64,000 bases of DNA from assembly GCA_949291515.1 (NCBI GenBank), contig CASEVY010000007.1:62001-126000 (forward strand), read 5' to 3'. Source of the stretch: an uncultured bacterium. GTDB taxonomy: Bacteria > Elusimicrobiota > Elusimicrobia > Elusimicrobiales > Elusimicrobiaceae. Position numbers and translations under genes: made by a program. Shown here piece after piece: positions 47,134-55,522 of the stretch; position 1 is the stretch's first letter; each line of letters opens with the position of its first letter. Under the pieces are notes generated by a model. It saw only the letters and a program-made list of their open reading frames with translations, was not told the origin of the DNA and did not search any database.

Positions 47134-49038
47134 TTACGATCGTCCGAACTTGCGCGTAATTTCCTTCATTTCCAAGGTAATTAAAGTCGGCCTGCCGTGC
47201 GGACAATGCAGGGCGTCTTTGCACTTTTTCATATTTTCCACAAGGGCAAGGGCCTGCACTTTTTCCAGCTTTTCGCCCGCTTTGATGGCCTTTTTGCAGG
47301 CCATAGTGGAAATCAAGCGGTATTTTAAAGAGTCGTCCGATTTGGAGGGCTCGCCTATAACGTCGGAAAGGGAAAGTATAAAATCTTTTATGTTTTCTTC
47401 TTTAAACTTGAGCAAATTAGGGACGGAATTTATCGTCAAAGTACCGCTTGAAAAACGCGAAATTTCAAAGCCGGCCTTTTCCAATATTTTACTCCAAGCC
47501 AATACGGCCTCCAGTTTGCTCGCGGGCAGCTGCAGGCTTACCGGGAACATTAAAGGCTGGATTTGTACGGAAGAGTTTTCTATTTGTTGCATATATTCTT
47601 CGAAGTAAATTCTTTCCTGCGCGGCGTGTTGGTCTATCATTACCAATCCTTGCGGGTTTTCAAATAACAGATAACTCTGCTGGAGCTGGCCGATATATGT
47701 ATAGGGGCCTTTAAACCAAAGGGGCTGATTCTGCGGCGTTTCATCTATAAGAGCGGGTTCGGGTTGAACTGTTTGGCTTATTTGATTTTGAGGCTCTTCT
47801 TTTGTTTCGTCTTCACTGTTAAAGCTGTAAACGGGCGGGGCTTCAAAATCGCGAGTTTGCACCGATTGCAGAGTTTTTTGTGCGGCGGTATTTAACAGCT
47901 GCCCCAAATTTTGAGCCTGCTCTTTGAAGTCGGGTTTCTTTTCGAAGGAAGGCACGGGCGGGCAAAGGAAATTAAGCGGCTGTAGCGACGGCTGGGCCGT
48001 TTTGTTCAACTCCATATTTTGGCTTTGCGCGTTTTGTAAAAGGACATTGGCGATTTTGGAGTATATGAAATTAAAAATTTCGCCTTCTTTTACGAATTTT
48101 ATGTCTTTTTTTTGCGGGTGGATATTAACGTCGAACTCGCTTGGCGGCAGCGTCATAAAAATTACGGCGGAGGGATGTTTGTCTTTTTCTCTGTAAGGCT
48201 GATAGGCTTTATATAGAGCCTGCTGCATCAGCTTGCAGGAAACAGGGCGTTTGTTTATAAAGAAGAACTGCCTGTCGCGCGCGGGATAGAGTTTATCCGC
48301 CGGAGAAACAAAAGCCTTAAAACCGTAAGTTTCGTCTTGTATATAAATCATTGTTTTGGCAATATCCTCGCCCAATATTTTGCCCAAACGGTTTCTTAGG
48401 CCTTGTTCGTCGTCTTTCTGAGCGGTCAAAGAATATATCTTAGAGCCGTCAGTTTTTACGTTGAAGACAATCTGCGGATTGGCCATTGCCGCCTCTTCCG
48501 CGCAGGAAAGCAGATGCCCTCTTTCGACATTATCCGATTTTAAAAATTTAAGTCTTGCCGGAGTATTGAAAAACAAATCCCGCACCTCAACGGTAGTGCC
48601 CTTTATGGCAGGCGCAGGCGCTTGGTTTGTTATTTTGCCGCCCTCGGCCTGTATCATTGCGCCTTTTTGGTCCTGTACGCAGGAGGATATGCTCAGGCGG
48701 CTTATGGCCGCGATAGAGTAAAGAGCTTCGCCCCTAAAGCCGAAAGTGTTTAAACTGTCCAGATCCTCAAAGTTCTCTATTTTGCTGGTAGAGTGGCGCA
48801 AAAGCGCAAGCGGGAGATCCTCCTGCGAAATTCCTTGGCCGTTGTCGTTGACGCGAATCAGCTTTTTGCCAGCTTTCTCTATTTCAATATTGATTAGAGT
48901 CGCGCCGGAATCAAGACTGTTTTCCAGCAGTTCTTTTAACACTCCGCTTGGCCGTTCGATAACTTCGCCCGCGGCTATTTTGCCTGCGGTTTTAGGGTCT
49001 AAAATTTTGATGTTTTTCACTCTAACCTCTTTTTCCAT
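47134..49038 (-). CDS. mutL: DNA mismatch repair protein MutL (endonuclease type)
   Basis: Couples mismatch recognition to strand incision. 634 residues: GHKL ATPase motifs KIAAGEVIERP, NDNGQGI and GFRGEALYSIAA; a Pro/Gln-rich linker about residues 340-460; and a C-terminal domain with the metal-binding endonuclease motif DQHAAQERIYFE (DQHAx2Ex4E), ACKKAIKAGE and CPHGRPT. The motif shows intrinsic nicking, so MutH is not needed. Its start overlaps the mutS end by 22 bases. Confidence 0.97.
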   Translation of the reverse strand: MEKEVRVKNIKILDPKTAGKIAAGEVIERPSGVLKELLENSLDSGATLINIEIEKAGKKLIRVNDNGQGISQEDLPLALLRHSTSKIENFEDLDSLNTFGFRGEALYSIAAISRLSISSCVQDQKGAMIQAEGGKITNQAPAPAIKGTTVEVRDLFFNTPARLKFLKSDNVERGHLLSCAEEAAMANPQIVFNVKTDGSKIYSLTAQKDDEQGLRNRLGKILGEDIAKTMIYIQDETYGFKAFVSPADKLYPARDRQFFFINKRPVSCKLMQQALYKAYQPYREKDKHPSAVIFMTLPPSEFDVNIHPQKKDIKFVKEGEIFNFIYSKIANVLLQNAQSQNMELNKTAQPSLQPLNFLCPPVPSFEKKPDFKEQAQNLGQLLNTAAQKTLQSVQTRDFEAPPVYSFNSEDETKEEPQNQISQTVQPEPALIDETPQNQPLWFKGPYTYIGQLQQSYLLFENPQGLVMIDQHAAQERIYFEEYMQQIENSSVQIQPLMFPVSLQLPASKLEAVLAWSKILEKAGFEISRFSSGTLTINSVPNLLKFKEENIKDFILSLSDVIGEPSKSDDSLKYRLISTMACKKAIKAGEKLEKVQALALVENMKKCKDALHCPHGRPTLITLEMKEITRKFGRS

Positions 49039-51563
49039 TCCGATATAATCTGCAGGGCCTGCAGCGGCGTTATTTTATTTAAGTCTACCATTTTTATTTC
49101 CTGTACTATCGGGCTGGAGAACAAATCCGGCGCGCTGTCTTCCTGCATGGTATTGCTCATAGCCTGTTTTTCGCCCAGGTCCGCCAAGATTTTCTTGGCT
49201 CTTAATATGCAGCTGTGCGGCAGGCCGGCTATCTCGGCTACGTGTACGCCGTAGGACTTATCGGCTCCGCCGGGCTGGATCTCAAAGAGGAAGTTTAGTT
49301 TTATTTCGCCGCCGGGCGTTTTATATTCGCTTGCCGTCACGTGAAAATTCTTTATGCGGGCATATTTGTCTTCCAGTTCGGTCAGTTCGAAGTAATGCGT
49401 AGCAAAAAGGACCTTCGGTCCGCAGCCGTGCGGCTTATACAAAAATTCCGTTATGGCCCAAGCTATAGAAATGCCGTCGTAGGTGGAAGTGCCCCTGCCG
49501 ACTTCGTCAAACAGTATCAAAGTGGCGGGCGTGGCGCATGCAAGGATATTGGCCGTTTCGCGCATTTCAACCATAAATGTAGATTCGCCCCTGCTCAAAG
49601 CGTCCTGCGCTCCGATACGCGTAAGGATTTTGTCGGTCAAAGGTATTTCCGCATGGTCGGCCGGCACAAAACTGCCCATCTGCGCCATAATCGTTATGAG
49701 GGCAGTCTGCTTTAAAAACACGCTTTTGCCACCCATATTCGGGCCCGTTAAAAGTATTATTTGCGGGCCTTGTCCGCCCAAGAACAAGTCGTTGGGCACG
49801 AAACTGCCGCTGGGAATATTCTGTTCCACTATCGGGTGGCGGCCCTTTTCTATCGTCAACGCAGAATTGGACGGCGCTATTTGCGGTTTTTTGTAATTGC
49901 CGTTAAGCGCGGCGCAGGCCAAAGAGAATAGGCAGTCGCTCTTGGCGATAATTTTGGCCGTCTTTTTTAATACGGACAAGTTTTGGTATAGGTAGGATTT
50001 TATCTCCTCGAAAAGAGAGAGTTCTATACGTAGGCTCTTTTCCTCCGCGGAAAGGATTTTCTTTTCCAGTTCCTTTAGCTCTTCCGTTACGAATCTTTCC
50101 GCACCCGTCAGGGTTTGTTTGCGGATATAGTCATATGGCACTTTGGATATATGCGTTTTGGTTACTTCGATATAGTATCCGAATACGGAGTTGAAGCCCA
50201 CCTTCAAAGATGATATCCCCGTACGTTCCTTTTCCCTTTGGCAGATGGCCATAAGGGCTTGGTCGGCGTGTTGTTTAAGGTCTATAATTTCGTCCAGTTC
50301 GGCATTGTAGCCGGGCTTTATGATGCCGCCGTCGGAAAGTTTCGCCGGCGGGTTTTCGTTCAGAGCTCTGGAAAGCAAATCAGAAATTTCCTTTATTTTG
50401 TTAAAGTGCTTGGCAAAAACGTCGCGCAATTCCGGCAGCAGGGAGCCGTAGTTGAGCAGCCAGTCTTTAAATTTGTCGCATAAATTTAAAGATTGCCTCA
50501 GCCCCGCCAAATCCCTCGGCGTAGCCGAAGATGTCGCGACGCGGCTCATAATCCTTTCTATGTCGCAGACGTCTTTTAATATTAAGGCCAGTTCGTCGCG
50601 GGCCGCTTCGTTTTCAAGAAGGGCCTGCACCGCTGTTTGCCTGGCCGAAATCTCTTTCGTGTCAAGCAGAGGCCTCAGTATCCATTCTTTTAAGGTCCTG
50701 GAACCCATTGGCGTTTTGGTATAATCCAATATCCCCCAAAGAGTATTTCTTCGTCCGCCCAACGGGCTTGAAGTAAGCTCTAAAGTCGCAACCGCGGCGC
50801 TGTCGAGCTGCAGATAGTCCGATATTTCTTTGTAGAAAGGCGCGAAGTATTCCTTAAAATTGTCGTTTGTTCCGGCCATATATTTAAGACAGCTAAGGCC
50901 GGCTTTTAAGGCTAAAGGATAGTTGGTCAGACTGCCGGGCCAATTTTCCGGCAGTTTGTCGGTTTCATAAGATGGTTCGCAGGGCGAAAGCGTAATATCC
51001 TGCGGAAGAATAATTTTTGTTTTCAGTTTGTTTAAACTTTCTTTCCCGCCGATAATTTCGGAAGGATTAATAGTCGCCATCAGCGCGGAAAGCGAGGTCA
51101 TATCTTCGTCGTTGTCTTTTTGGGTTATCCAAAAATCACCGGTGGAGGCCTCTAGGCATGCTATGCCCCAGCCGTTTTTGTCGGTTTCTACCGCCAAGAG
51201 ATAATTGGAATTGCCCGCTTCCAACATAGAATCTTCCAATACCGTACCCGGAGTTATTATTTTTACTATTTTCCTTTCGAACAGCTTGGTCTTCGGGTTT
51301 GTAATATTTGAGGTTTGTTCGCATATCGCTATTTTTTTGCCCGCTTTAAGCAGTTTGGCGATATAAGAATTAGCCGAATGGTACGGTACTCCGCACATGG
51401 GTTGATCGCCGCGCGCGGTCAGCGCGAGGCCGAGCAGGCGCGAACCTTCTTTGGCGTCGTCGCCGAACATCTCGTAGAAGTCGCCCAGTCTAAAGAACAG
51501 CAAAGCGTCAGGATTTTGATTTTTTATTTCGTAATACTGGCGCATGAGGGGGGTTAGTGTCAT
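49017..51563 (-). CDS. mutS: DNA mismatch repair protein MutS
   Basis: Binds mismatches and small loops. 848 residues: the N-terminal mismatch-binding FFRLGDFYEMF motif (Phe-x-Glu), connector, lever and clamp domains, then the ABC ATPase with GPNMGGKSVFLKQ, signature STFMVEMRETANIL and LILFDEVGRGTST. It starts six bases after dusB and overlaps mutL. Confidence 0.98.
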   Translation of the reverse strand: MTLTPLMRQYYEIKNQNPDALLFFRLGDFYEMFGDDAKEGSRLLGLALTARGDQPMCGVPYHSANSYIAKLLKAGKKIAICEQTSNITNPKTKLFERKIVKIITPGTVLEDSMLEAGNSNYLLAVETDKNGWGIACLEASTGDFWITQKDNDEDMTSLSALMATINPSEIIGGKESLNKLKTKIILPQDITLSPCEPSYETDKLPENWPGSLTNYPLALKAGLSCLKYMAGTNDNFKEYFAPFYKEISDYLQLDSAAVATLELTSSPLGGRRNTLWGILDYTKTPMGSRTLKEWILRPLLDTKEISARQTAVQALLENEAARDELALILKDVCDIERIMSRVATSSATPRDLAGLRQSLNLCDKFKDWLLNYGSLLPELRDVFAKHFNKIKEISDLLSRALNENPPAKLSDGGIIKPGYNAELDEIIDLKQHADQALMAICQREKERTGISSLKVGFNSVFGYYIEVTKTHISKVPYDYIRKQTLTGAERFVTEELKELEKKILSAEEKSLRIELSLFEEIKSYLYQNLSVLKKTAKIIAKSDCLFSLACAALNGNYKKPQIAPSNSALTIEKGRHPIVEQNIPSGSFVPNDLFLGGQGPQIILLTGPNMGGKSVFLKQTALITIMAQMGSFVPADHAEIPLTDKILTRIGAQDALSRGESTFMVEMRETANILACATPATLILFDEVGRGTSTYDGISIAWAITEFLYKPHGCGPKVLFATHYFELTELEDKYARIKNFHVTASEYKTPGGEIKLNFLFEIQPGGADKSYGVHVAEIAGLPHSCILRAKKILADLGEKQAMSNTMQEDSAPDLFSSPIVQEIKMVDLNKITPLQALQIISEWKKRLE

Positions 51564-51569
51564 ACTGAA

Positions 51570-52547
51570 TTATTGCTTCTCCTTTATAACGAGAGAAAGT
51601 ATTTCCTTCGCGTCCGACAGCTTCTCGCATCGGACGAATTTTTCTCTAACCGCCGCGGCATTGTTAAATCCGTGCAGCCAATAACCAACCGTTTTTTTGC
51701 TGCGGCTTATTCCTACTTTCTCTCCGTAAAATTTTACGTTTTCTTCAACAAGCGCAAGAAATATTTCCGCCTTGCGGACATTGTCTACGGGAGTATAGTC
51801 CGCCCCGTTGAGAGCTTGCGCTATTTCCTTAAATATAAAAGGGTTTCCTATTGCGCCGCGGCCTATCATTACGGCTTGCGCGCCCGCTTCAAACATTTCT
51901 TTCGCGTCGCGCGCGTTTAATACGCCGCCGTTGGCTATTACCGGTATTTTGGCGACGCGGCAGGCGCTTTCCAAAAATTTTATGTTAGGCGCGCCGTTAT
52001 GTACGTCGAGCGCCGCGCGAGCATGCAAAGTTATGGCCGCGGCGCCGTTATCCTGCGCTATTTTGGTAAGCAGCGGAGCCAAATTATCTTGCCTGTTGAG
52101 CGAAACCCTGGTCTTTAAAGTTACGGGTATTTTTACGCTTCTTACGGCGGCTTGCAGAATCTCCGCTATTTTTTCGGGCGTTTTCATTAAGACGCAGCCC
52201 GCACCCGCCTTGTTGACTTTCTTTACCGGGCAGCCCGCGTTGATGTCTATTATGTCCGCGCCCTGGTCCTGAGCCTGTTTGCAGGCCAAAGCTATGCTTT
52301 GCGCATCGCCGCCGAATACCTGCATCGATATAGGGTGTTCCTCTTGCGCAACCTTTAGCATTCTTACGCTTTTGGCATTATTGTATTTTAAGGCAGAGGC
52401 GGATACCATCTCCGCGCATACAAGCCCCGCCCCGCCTTTAAGGCATAGTATTCTGAACGGAGTATCCGTTATCCCAGCCATTGGCGCCAATACTAAATTT
52501 GAGGGACAGGTAAAGTCCCCTATCTTTAACTCTTTTATCAAAACCAT
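51570..52547 (-). CDS. dusB: tRNA-dihydrouridine synthase (Dus family)
   Basis: FMN enzyme reducing uridines in tRNA D-loops. 325 residues with LVLAPMAGITDTPFRIL, the catalytic cysteine in INAGCPVKKV, ITLHARAAL and VIANGGVLNARDA, then GRGAIGNPFIF. DusB type by overall pattern. Its ATG directly follows the stop of the upstream gene (TAAATG) with GGAAGGA just before. Confidence 0.93.
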   Translation of the reverse strand: MVLIKELKIGDFTCPSNLVLAPMAGITDTPFRILCLKGGAGLVCAEMVSASALKYNNAKSVRMLKVAQEEHPISMQVFGGDAQSIALACKQAQDQGADIIDINAGCPVKKVNKAGAGCVLMKTPEKIAEILQAAVRSVKIPVTLKTRVSLNRQDNLAPLLTKIAQDNGAAAITLHARAALDVHNGAPNIKFLESACRVAKIPVIANGGVLNARDAKEMFEAGAQAVMIGRGAIGNPFIFKEIAQALNGADYTPVDNVRKAEIFLALVEENVKFYGEKVGISRSKKTVGYWLHGFNNAAAVREKFVRCEKLSDAKEILSLVIKEKQ

Positions 52548-54041
52548 TTATCCTTCCTTCCAGACGTCTTGCGTGACGGAAGTTACTTCCTTGTCCCTGT
52601 TTAGGCACCAACGCAGGATATCGCGTACCGTTCTGTCGGTATTTTTAAATTCGAAAACGTTTAAAAATTCGTTATGGCCCATTCCGCCCGCGACGATATG
52701 GTCCGACAGCGATATCGAATAAAGCCTTGCCGCCTGTACGGGCGCGCCGTTTACGTATAATTTCTTTATTTTTTTGCCCAAAGGCGCATCGGCGTCGTAA
52801 AGCACTCTTAGTCCGGAGGTTTGCGGCCAGTTGTTTTTTGTCGCGATGCTGTATTCTAGGGCGTTTTTAAGTTCGTCGCCGCGCATTTTGACGAACATTA
52901 CTCTATCGTTAAACGGAATGGCGTTGCTCAATTGTACTTCGCTTAACGGCCCTTTTTCGAAACCGTTTAAAAAGGCGTCGGAATTTATTATGCCCAGCTC
53001 ATTTTTCCCCCAGCGTTTTATACATTGTGCGGTATAGGCTCCGAGAGGTGAGGGCTTGTCGCTGTAAGTGGGCAAATCGTCGCCGAGAGAGGCTATTTTA
53101 CGGCTTGTCGTTCTCAGTGCGACTTTGCGCATATTCTCTATTTCGTGATCCAACCCCTCGTCTTGCCCCAAAGTGTCTTTGTCCAAAATTACGGGTTCGA
53201 ACTGGTAAGCGGACAACTGCTTGTTCTTGTTGAATTTCAGCGTTATTTTGGCCGTTTCAAACAGCATCGGCGGGCAGCGCGTTACCAAAGTTTTGGAAAT
53301 TTCTTCCGTTTCGGAGCCGGATACGTCGCTGTTGCCGCCCAAAATTACCGTAAGTTCGGGCAGTTCTTCCGCGAGAGTTTTTTCGTCCGTCTTTTTGCTG
53401 TTTAAGTCCAAGTCGAAGCCGACGCTGCTTAAAAGTATTATTATGTCGGGATTATGTTTCTCTATTTGCGGAAGAAGCTCGCGTATCGCCGAGATCTCGT
53501 CTTTTACCAAAAGAGAGGAGTTCCTTAAAGTATCCGGGAAATCCTGTTTCGACATTACTCCCAAAACCGCCGCCTTTATGCCGTTCTCTTCCGCGATTAC
53601 GTATTTTTTGATGTATTTTGGCTGTGTTCCATCTTTATTCTCCAGGTTGGATACGACTATGGGGAAATTGGCTTTTTTCAAGCCCGATTCAACCACGTCC
53701 CAGCCCAAAGCCAAATCGGCCGAACTCAAAGTTGCGGCGGTATAGCCCAGTTTGTTCATTAAGGTTACGGCGCCGTCTAGTTTAAACTGTTTTCCCACTT
53801 GCGTCTTGGAAAAAGTATTGCCGCTGTCAAAGAGCATATAATGTTCTTCTTGTTTTGCCAACAAGTTTTTCAGCACCGCTATTCCGCCAGTAGGACGGTT
53901 TTCGTTCTCGGCGGAATTGCGGGCCCAATAAAAACCTTGTATATCGTTCGTATGAAAAATAACAAGCTCTATCCCGGGGTCGCGGCTGCATGCGCTTATC
54001 AACAGCGCGCCCGACAATATGAAAGGCAAAAGATATTTCAT
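52548..54041 (-). CDS. Degenerate 5'-nucleotidase paralogue (lipoprotein, predicted pseudoenzyme)
   Basis: 497 residues, exported with lipobox LISAC (Cys18). Overall UshA/5'-nucleotidase layout, collinear with the neighbour at 54038-55522, but the metal and substrate motifs are lost. HTxDxHG is HTNDIQG (His to Gln35), DSGD is DSGN (Asp to Asn75), GNHE is SSAD (106-109), GGHxH is GGNSD, and the nucleotide-binding NxGGxR is NSDAFLNG. The frame is intact at full length with a normal lipobox. It overlaps its paralogue by four bases (ATGA) and dusB follows at once. A binding, scaffold or regulatory role is inference. Confidence 0.85.
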   Translation of the reverse strand: MKYLLPFILSGALLISACSRDPGIELVIFHTNDIQGFYWARNSAENENRPTGGIAVLKNLLAKQEEHYMLFDSGNTFSKTQVGKQFKLDGAVTLMNKLGYTAATLSSADLALGWDVVESGLKKANFPIVVSNLENKDGTQPKYIKKYVIAEENGIKAAVLGVMSKQDFPDTLRNSSLLVKDEISAIRELLPQIEKHNPDIIILLSSVGFDLDLNSKKTDEKTLAEELPELTVILGGNSDVSGSETEEISKTLVTRCPPMLFETAKITLKFNKNKQLSAYQFEPVILDKDTLGQDEGLDHEIENMRKVALRTTSRKIASLGDDLPTYSDKPSPLGAYTAQCIKRWGKNELGIINSDAFLNGFEKGPLSEVQLSNAIPFNDRVMFVKMRGDELKNALEYSIATKNNWPQTSGLRVLYDADAPLGKKIKKLYVNGAPVQAARLYSISLSDHIVAGGMGHNEFLNVFEFKNTDRTVRDILRWCLNRDKEVTSVTQDVWKEG

Positions 54042-55522
54042 TTTTGATTAACTTTTTTTATCCTTCCGTTCTTCACGCCTTTTATGCCGTCTGGGTTGGC
54101 TTTAACATAATCGATAAACAGTTCGGTAATAGTCTTTTGGGAATAAGGTTCTTTATCCTCTATTTTCTTGAACATATAGCCTTCCGATCCGCCTTTGGCG
54201 GTATAATCGTTGGTGCCTATGGAATAAGTTCTTTCCGGGTCCAAAGGTTCGCCGTTGACTTTTATCGAAATTATTTGCGGTTTTTTATGTTTATATTCGT
54301 ATTCGACCGCCACTCCCGAATATTGGAACAGGCTCCTGTTTTGCTTTAGGCTTTTGAGTATCAGTTTTTTTAGGAAGTCGCCTTTTACTCTTACTACATA
54401 AGGCTTGTTGGGGAACGGGAAAATCTGATATGCCGTCCTTGTGGTGATATCGCCTTTTGGCAGGGCCTCGCGAACTCCGCCGGTGTTCTGCAGCCCTATT
54501 TCGGCGCCGGTGTGTTTCTTGACCAAATCCGCAAAGAGATTGCCCAGCGGGGAATCGATGTATTCCGCATTTTTGGGGGCATTGTTTGGTATGGTTTCCA
54601 ATGCTTTGCCGATGGGTTTATCCATATATTTGGCGCGGTTGGCTTCCGCGAACTCCTGCATATAAGGATCGGGGGTATATTTATCTGCGTCCAGCTCGAC
54701 AAATTCCGAATAGGCTTTTACGAATTTACCTGTTTCGTCGTCAAATTCCAGCGTGATATGGCTTACGTGCGTCAGGGCCGTTCCGCTTTCCACGAAAAGC
54801 GTTCCGTTTTTGTATACGTTTTGGAAGACTTTATGGGCATGTCCGCCCAATACTACGTTTATGCCGTCAAGGCCTTTTATAAGATCGCGGTTGTTTTTTT
54901 CGTCGGTATGTTTGTCGTCTTCAATGGAGGAGTGCACAAGCAGGACGACGGCGTCGGGCTCCTGCAGTTTTAACTGATGCAAGGCTTTTTTTAGGGCTTT
55001 TCTGTCGCCCGATATTTTTATGCCGTCCGCTTTGGTGGAAAACTCCTTGCCTATTCCTATCACGCCTATCTTTTTCCCGTTTATAATATAAGTTTTAAAC
55101 GGCTTCACCTTGGAAAGAGCGGCATTGTCGGAAGAGTCTTTCAGGTTCGCGGCCAGAACGTCGAAAGATGCCGAATCTATGTTCTTTATAAGATTGGCTT
55201 TGCCAAAATCGTTTTCGTGATTGCCGATTGCTGCGGCGTTGTAGCCGAGCTTGTTCATAAACTGGACGGAAAGATTCCCGCCCGATTGTTTAGCCTCGTA
55301 AGTGCCGGAGGTAAAATCGCCGCTGTCAAGCAGAAGGTAAGGCGTTTGCCATTGCTGCAGGTAAGCGTCCAAAACGGCGAATCCGCCGATGTTTTTGCCG
55401 TCTGATTTCCTGGGGAAATAGAAGCCGTGCGTATCTGAAGTGTGAAAGATGTCCACGGTTGCGGCAAAAGCGAAAGAGCCGAAAACCGAGAGAAAGGCCA
55501 AGCAAAATAATTTTTTAAGCAT
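54038..55522 (-). CDS. 5'-nucleotidase / UshA-family metallophosphoesterase
   Basis: 494 residues with a signal peptide (MLKKLFCLAFLSVFGSFAFA). Periplasmic enzyme that dephosphorylates nucleotides or UDP-sugars. Motifs are intact: HTSDTHG (Asp30, His32), DSGD (Asp66, Asp69), GNHE (100-103), LLVHSS, GGHAHKV, and the C-terminal substrate domain with NTGGVREALPKGD and NDYTAKGG. GGAGG four bases before the ATG. First of a five-gene minus-strand run with its degenerate paralogue, dusB, mutS and mutL. Confidence 0.93.
   Translation of the reverse strand: MLKKLFCLAFLSVFGSFAFAATVDIFHTSDTHGFYFPRKSDGKNIGGFAVLDAYLQQWQTPYLLLDSGDFTSGTYEAKQSGGNLSVQFMNKLGYNAAAIGNHENDFGKANLIKNIDSASFDVLAANLKDSSDNAALSKVKPFKTYIINGKKIGVIGIGKEFSTKADGIKISGDRKALKKALHQLKLQEPDAVVLLVHSSIEDDKHTDEKNNRDLIKGLDGINVVLGGHAHKVFQNVYKNGTLFVESGTALTHVSHITLEFDDETGKFVKAYSEFVELDADKYTPDPYMQEFAEANRAKYMDKPIGKALETIPNNAPKNAEYIDSPLGNLFADLVKKHTGAEIGLQNTGGVREALPKGDITTRTAYQIFPFPNKPYVVRVKGDFLKKLILKSLKQNRSLFQYSGVAVEYEYKHKKPQIISIKVNGEPLDPERTYSIGTNDYTAKGGSEGYMFKKIEDKEPYSQKTITELFIDYVKANPDGIKGVKNGRIKKVNQK

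Follow-up and report, generated by a model that had tools for sequence, protein, structure and literature searches.

Two homologous genes, here named A and P, lie one behind the other on the minus strand of the window (the whole stretch of DNA analysed, 64,000 nucleotides from an uncultured bacterium of the family Elusimicrobiaceae whose assembled genome comprises 1.5 Mb in 13 contigs), and are followed by dusB; their coordinates, together with those of the motifs discussed below, are collected in Table 1. Downstream of P, the genes dusB, mutS and mutL occupy the same strand (window positions 47134-52547), a run common to the relatives in the genus, with mutL overlapping the end of mutS by 22 bases in the window. 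The gene order A>P>dusB, with mutS and mutL next, is found in all the inspected loci of the Elusimicrobiaceae (family f1) whose contig reaches dusB. In the two loci checked of the sister family of the order Elusimicrobiales (f2) the flanks are unlike those of f1, L073 carrying rpsI/rplM and dnaG, and L069 dnaG; as these surroundings differ from those in f1, the A-P pair is conserved independently of them. Wherever A and P were both read, P lies directly downstream of an intact A on the same strand. In most loci it starts about -8 to +13 bases from the A stop codon, the distance being 60-140 bases in four f2 loci.

Table 1: Features of the A-P locus, in window coordinates (all on the minus strand).
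Feature	Positions	Strand	Description
A	54038..55522 (read 55522->54038)	minus	Intact, predicted Sec-exported UshA/CD73-type metallophosphatase; 494 aa; 8/8 metal/catalytic residues
A end/P start	54038..54041	minus	ATGA stop/start overlap, 4 bases
P	52548..54041 (read 54041->52548)	minus	Full-length two-domain protein of 497 aa, a putative lipoprotein and pseudo-5'-nucleotidase
Lipobox	53985..53999	minus	ISAC/S; Cys18
HTNDIQG	53934..53954	minus	DxH metal motif, His to Gln
DSGN	53817..53828	minus	GD motif, metal-bridging Asp to Asn
SSAD	53715..53726	minus	GNH(E/D) motif lost, Asn to Ser, catalytic His to Ala; Asp109 kept, 98% conserved in P
LSSVG	53418..53432	minus	VH motif lost, His to Ser206
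GGNSD	53325..53339	minus	GHxH motif lost
C340 + W344	53010..53051	minus	SPLGAYTAQCIKRW; first half of the C/W/C signature common to intact enzymes of other orders
INSDAFLNG	52962..52988	minus	Nucleotide-binding motif NxGGxR, still with its Asn (N354) but no longer with GG and Arg
PFNDR	52902..52916	minus	F377, site of a base-stacking residue
SDHIVAGGMGH	52674..52706	minus	D447; H448, where active enzymes have the second stacking aromatic
E464-F465-x-N467 + C479	52596..52652	minus	P-specific motif; C479, probable disulfide partner of C340
dusB	51570..52547 (read 52547->51570)	minus	Third in the run A>P>dusB, first base directly after P

Motifs, fold and constraint of P

Eight positions were scored, namely the dimetal ligands D, H, D, N, H, H, H and the catalytic His of the GNH motif; all eight are present in A and in the 16 outgroup enzymes, and only one, D33, in P, where the other seven are replaced (H to Q35, D to N75, N to S107, H to A108, H to S206, H to N237 and H to D239). 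Besides these positions, the Arg of NxGGxR is also gone, and of the C-terminal features of active enzymes, i.e., NxGGxR and two stacking aromatics, P is missing the GG and the Arg, and H448 occupies the site of the second aromatic. The first-pass annotation, according to which P has lost all its metal and substrate motifs, read correctly every motif that it listed, but its wording is slightly too strong: D33 (the Asp of DxH), D72 (the first Asp of DSGD), N354 (the Asn of NxGGxR) and F377 (the aromatic after Pro) are retained. The five motifs that it listed as lost are indeed lost, and a further loss, that of the His of the VH motif (S206), had been overlooked. The correspondence of the stacking residues in P is based on the alignment and on the CD73 numbering. 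The signal peptide of P carries a good lipobox, as had been claimed at the outset (LISAC, with the predicted lipidated Cys at C18); a Cys is aligned at this position in 98% of the P proteins, a figure preferred to the count by automatic regular expression, which is too low for P (52/62). The Cys is not found in A, which has a plain Sec signal, and the 8/86 matches of the same expression among A proteins probably lie in sequence upstream of the true start.

A Pfam search of P recognised the C-terminal domain PF02872 (E 1.5e-22), while the metallophosphatase domain PF00149 was not recognised at E<=0.1; A matches both domains. By phmmer, residues 27-459 of P align to 3ivd, the solved structure of a putative nucleotidase (E 1.6e-29), and the AlphaFold2 model of P, calculated from 54 aligned sequences (pLDDT 90.1, pTM 0.83), superposes on CD73, UshA and 3ivd with Z of 34-35 over about 455 residues. 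Because the model is confident and the alignment to CD73, UshA and 3ivd is full-length, P can be regarded as a full, folded two-domain protein, a member by descent of the UshA/CD73 family (PF00149 + PF02872) which retains the complete fold and the PF02872 match and differs from the other members in having no dimetal site, no catalytic His and no NxGGxR Arg, and in carrying a lipoprotein signal. The initial description of P as an intact frame with both domains is therefore borne out. As for the relative position of the domains, the whole-chain rmsd of the P model to closed and open CD73 is 7-9 Å (4.7 Å at best), compared with 2.5 Å for the model of A on closed CD73; since P fits neither state and A fits the closed one, the models hint that the domains of P are arranged differently, and perhaps rigidly.

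The comparison of the two copies in closely related genomes yielded dN/dS values for P (window-G001 0.043, window-G011 0.046, G001-G011 0.046) similar to those for A (0.041, 0.055 and 0.059 for the same pairs), all obtained by the NG86 method from pairs at dS 0.7-1.0, YN00 being unusable for many pairs owing to saturation or errors; for the window-G001 pair, the corresponding values are 0.033 for mutS and 0.083 for dusB. Since its dN/dS is like that of A, P is constrained among the closest relatives about as a working enzyme is; over longer spans it is somewhat more loosely constrained, the distances between P proteins being 1.28 times those between A proteins (median ratio, 44 loci).

The constraint is differently distributed in the two proteins: conservation in A is stronger in the N-domain than in the C-domain, and in P of both families the order is reversed, the eight former metal positions, which are at the 100th percentile of conservation in A, falling mostly at average or low percentiles in P. 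In the C-domain pocket of f1 P, Asn354 and an aromatic (F/Y) at 377 are each found in 40/41 proteins, D447 is invariant and H448 is present in 37/41; the substrate Arg is kept in 23/41 and is absent from P in the genus of the window. In UshA, the base is stacked by two Phe (PMC7922932). In f2 the pocket positions are poorly conserved, the exceptions being 447, which is an Asp, and 448, which is a Ser. Most P proteins of both families have in common the lipobox, the Cys pair, W344, D447 and E464-F465-x-N467, besides being paired with A.

Distribution and origin of P

About 120 loci of the phylum were compared. Of 60 relatives, 58 gave P-like matches, and the two others are genomes of 64-66% completeness. 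Searching the whole phylum with a profile of P gave, by hand counts from tables of which not all strong matches were read at the residue level, a strong P in 61/64 f1 genomes and in 28/36 f2 genomes. Among the other three f1 genomes, one (G020) has a diverged P and two (G019, G158) have P cut by a contig end; the remaining eight f2 genomes comprise five in which the P behind A, complete or partial, is very diverged, one with a split P and two (G043, G047) without P. The absence of P from all these eight, considered at first sight from the search, is thus rejected save for G043 and G047, which keep A without P; no genome with P but without an A-type gene was found among those inspected. P is a full-length ORF without stops in nearly all genomes, being split into two frames in G041 alone, and a frameshift or assembly artefact was rejected for the window, orthologues being present in separate assemblies. 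An intact P was not found in the order: the 71 P rows (some of which are one gene under two locus ids, and some fragments) keep 0-5 of the 8 residues, and the succession A>P is kept in two families; the conservation of the pair was a point which the first reading had put forward for checking.

Some loci depart from the simple pair. Arrays of the type A-A-P, with a second intact A upstream, occur in several relatives, f1 genomes among them, at L040, L041, L055, L057, L058, L060 and L066, and further ones at L156, L157, L158, L160 and L161; P is single and last throughout. In the genera g8 and g14 (L146, L147, L094, L095, L151) the P behind A has almost no metal motifs left, its frame being long and in place; the Cys pair is gone from these proteins where readable, L151 being cut by a contig end.

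In a tree of 53 proteins built under a site-heterogeneous model, P and A each form one clade (100/100 in both cases); the sister group of P consists of intact single-copy enzymes from other orders of the class, in families f7 and f8 (96/92), and A is weakly grouped with f5 (91/69). The separation of P from A is also recovered in a larger quick tree. A signature composed of C340, W344 and C479 is shared by P and the intact f7/f8 enzymes and is found in no A protein; C340 and C479 are both present in 71 rows (62 P, 9 outgroup), both absent from 101 (4 P, 90 A, 7 outgroup) and found singly in 2, a pattern from which a disulfide between them may be inferred. The tree, the intact f7/f8 sisters and the shared signature thus show P to descend from a lineage of intact enzymes distinct from A, with the dimetal site lost, as judged from the phylogeny, at the root of the Elusimicrobiales. 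A recent tandem duplication of A is rejected on the grounds that P and A are reciprocally monophyletic and that P is sister to outgroup enzymes; of the earlier designation of P as a tandem paralogue there remains that the two neighbours are homologous (28% identity), P being no recent duplicate of A. The f7/f8 enzymes (e.g., L126, L127, L130), unlike P, have all eight residues intact, and no degenerate partner was found for them, nearly all of their genomes giving one match each.

The P of G021 (L065:5374-6999 / L144:8374-9999), the first branch of the P clade, has 5/8 catalytic residues left; it may represent an evolutionary intermediate, a position to be taken with caution, as G021 is filed in f1 yet branches below both families.

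A catalytic loss shared by descent across a clade, and purifying selection acting after that loss (here among the closest relatives), are what is expected of a selected pseudoenzyme, and both are found in P. For a physical or allosteric contact of P with A the evidence is indirect, consisting of the gene pairing, the overlap and the correlated rates.

The relationship between P and A

Over 31 genomes, the distances of P and A correlate at 0.90; the partial correlation of P with A given dusB is 0.74 (jackknife 0.69-0.83), that of P with dusB given A 0.31. As far as such distances, which are not independent, can be read, P appears to co-evolve with A beyond what is shared with the neighbouring dusB, although operon linkage, location and homology could contribute. 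The selection for a non-enzymatic role suggested by the first-pass annotation is well supported, since no intact P occurs in the order, its dN/dS is as low as that of A and the A>P pair is conserved in two families. On the sequence evidence, i.e., the order-wide pairing, the origin separate from that of A, the dN/dS like that of A and the co-evolution, P is an ancient, selected pseudoenzyme of the UshA/CD73 family.

The best-supported role of P would be that of a membrane-anchored, non-catalytic partner of A, a proposal that we regard as evenly balanced between right and wrong. According to this model, P, the second gene product of the pair, would be tethered by its lipid at the membrane and would bind the soluble periplasmic A in a hetero-complex of two homologous two-domain proteins, holding it at the membrane surface and setting the equilibrium of its domain closure; in the Elusimicrobiaceae, the remodelled C-domain pocket of P would be the ligand-sensing part. 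A step of ligand sensing or binding is plausible in this family because N354, F/Y377, D447 and H448 are conserved in the pocket; the role of P may differ between families, because the pocket is not conserved in f2 and P of g8 and g14 has no Cys pair. The most complete version of the proposal, an order-wide two-component periplasmic nucleotidase in which the soluble A depends on, or is gated through, a dead homologue of like fold that is anchored by lipid, serves as its regulatory subunit and senses a ligand in its remodelled pocket, is put forward as a tentative possibility.

The main rival to the partner model is that P acts alone, as a periplasmic binding lipoprotein for ligands of the nucleotide or nucleoside type, its pocket capturing the product or the substrate of A for uptake or sensing without any contact with A. 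The pocket residues kept in f1 P while most metal positions vary, and the location of the substrate-binding site of UshA in the C-domain (PMC8071527; PMC7922932), are in agreement with such a function, which we consider nonetheless rather unlikely: the substrate Arg is gone in the genus of the window, the pocket is poorly conserved in f2 though P persists there, and no transporter was found among the genes checked beside the pair. The lipoprotein signal of P and its evolution faster than that of A, as is often the case for surface proteins, could also suit a surface or adhesin-like lipoprotein unrelated to A and kept beside it by operon inertia; this is improbable, in that A and P remain neighbours in both families, although the flanking genes in the f2 loci checked have nothing in common with those of f1, and the rates of P track those of A more than those of dusB.

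Equally improbable is that P is an enzyme endowed with a different chemistry, metal-independent or relying on a single metal, built on K58, D109, N132, D447, E464 and N467; several residues are indeed conserved in P of both families, some of them P-specific, and the fold is retained, but such residues occur throughout the two domains and, as several of them are also conserved in A and in the outgroup enzymes, they may be structural. Finally, P might be a decaying pseudogene derived from a recent duplication of A, as the loss of at least five motifs, the split gene of G041 and the two f2 genomes without P could suggest. This explanation has a negligible probability: relatives with an intact P and relaxed selection on P were both looked for and neither was found, and recent decay is rejected by the tree (in which P and A are each monophyletic and P has other intact enzymes as its sister group), by a dN/dS of about 0.04 and by the conservation of P across the order, where nearly all ORFs are full-length.

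Precedents and significance

Pseudoenzyme partners are known in many families. By analogy, the conversion proposed here for P, with A as its partner, would have precedents in three systems. The AdoMetDC prozyme of Trypanosoma is a dead paralogue which activates the enzyme, the heterodimer and its activation having been solved experimentally (PMC5201418); like P, it is a catalytically dead paralogue kept beside an active one, and the two may be compared in the way they work, but its fold is unrelated, and heterodimer and activation, experimental in that case, are inferred for P. The B-subunits of eukaryotic DNA polymerases are inactive calcineurin-like phosphoesterases with scaffold or regulatory functions (PMC4996933), which share with P the superfamily of the N-domain and the loss of the catalytic motifs; unlike P, they function in replication inside the cell and have no 5'-nucleotidase C-domain. 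DipM, an inactive LytM-domain regulator, binds and stimulates active autolysins (PMC10336132); like P, it belongs to the bacterial envelope and has a catalytic domain that is inactive, whereas its fold and substrates are unrelated and its targets are several rather than one operon partner. A pseudo-5'-nucleotidase partner for nucleotidases of the UshA/CD73 type was not found in the open-access literature searched.

Many UshA-like proteins are present in the Elusimicrobiota, phylum-wide (L126-L141), contrary to a survey which scores the phylum as having no ushA-like or cpdB-like genes (PMC10454023); in view of this negative score, the enzymes of the Elusimicrobiota, which are divergent, seem to have been overlooked.

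A whole order thus keeps a dead homologue with a predicted lipoprotein signal beside the operon copy of A. The loss at the base of the order, the intact sister lineage and the possible intermediate of G021 would together make up a natural series leading from an extracellular hydrolase to a regulator or binding protein; and if P does gate A, the pair would represent a way of controlling the breakdown of extracellular nucleotides.
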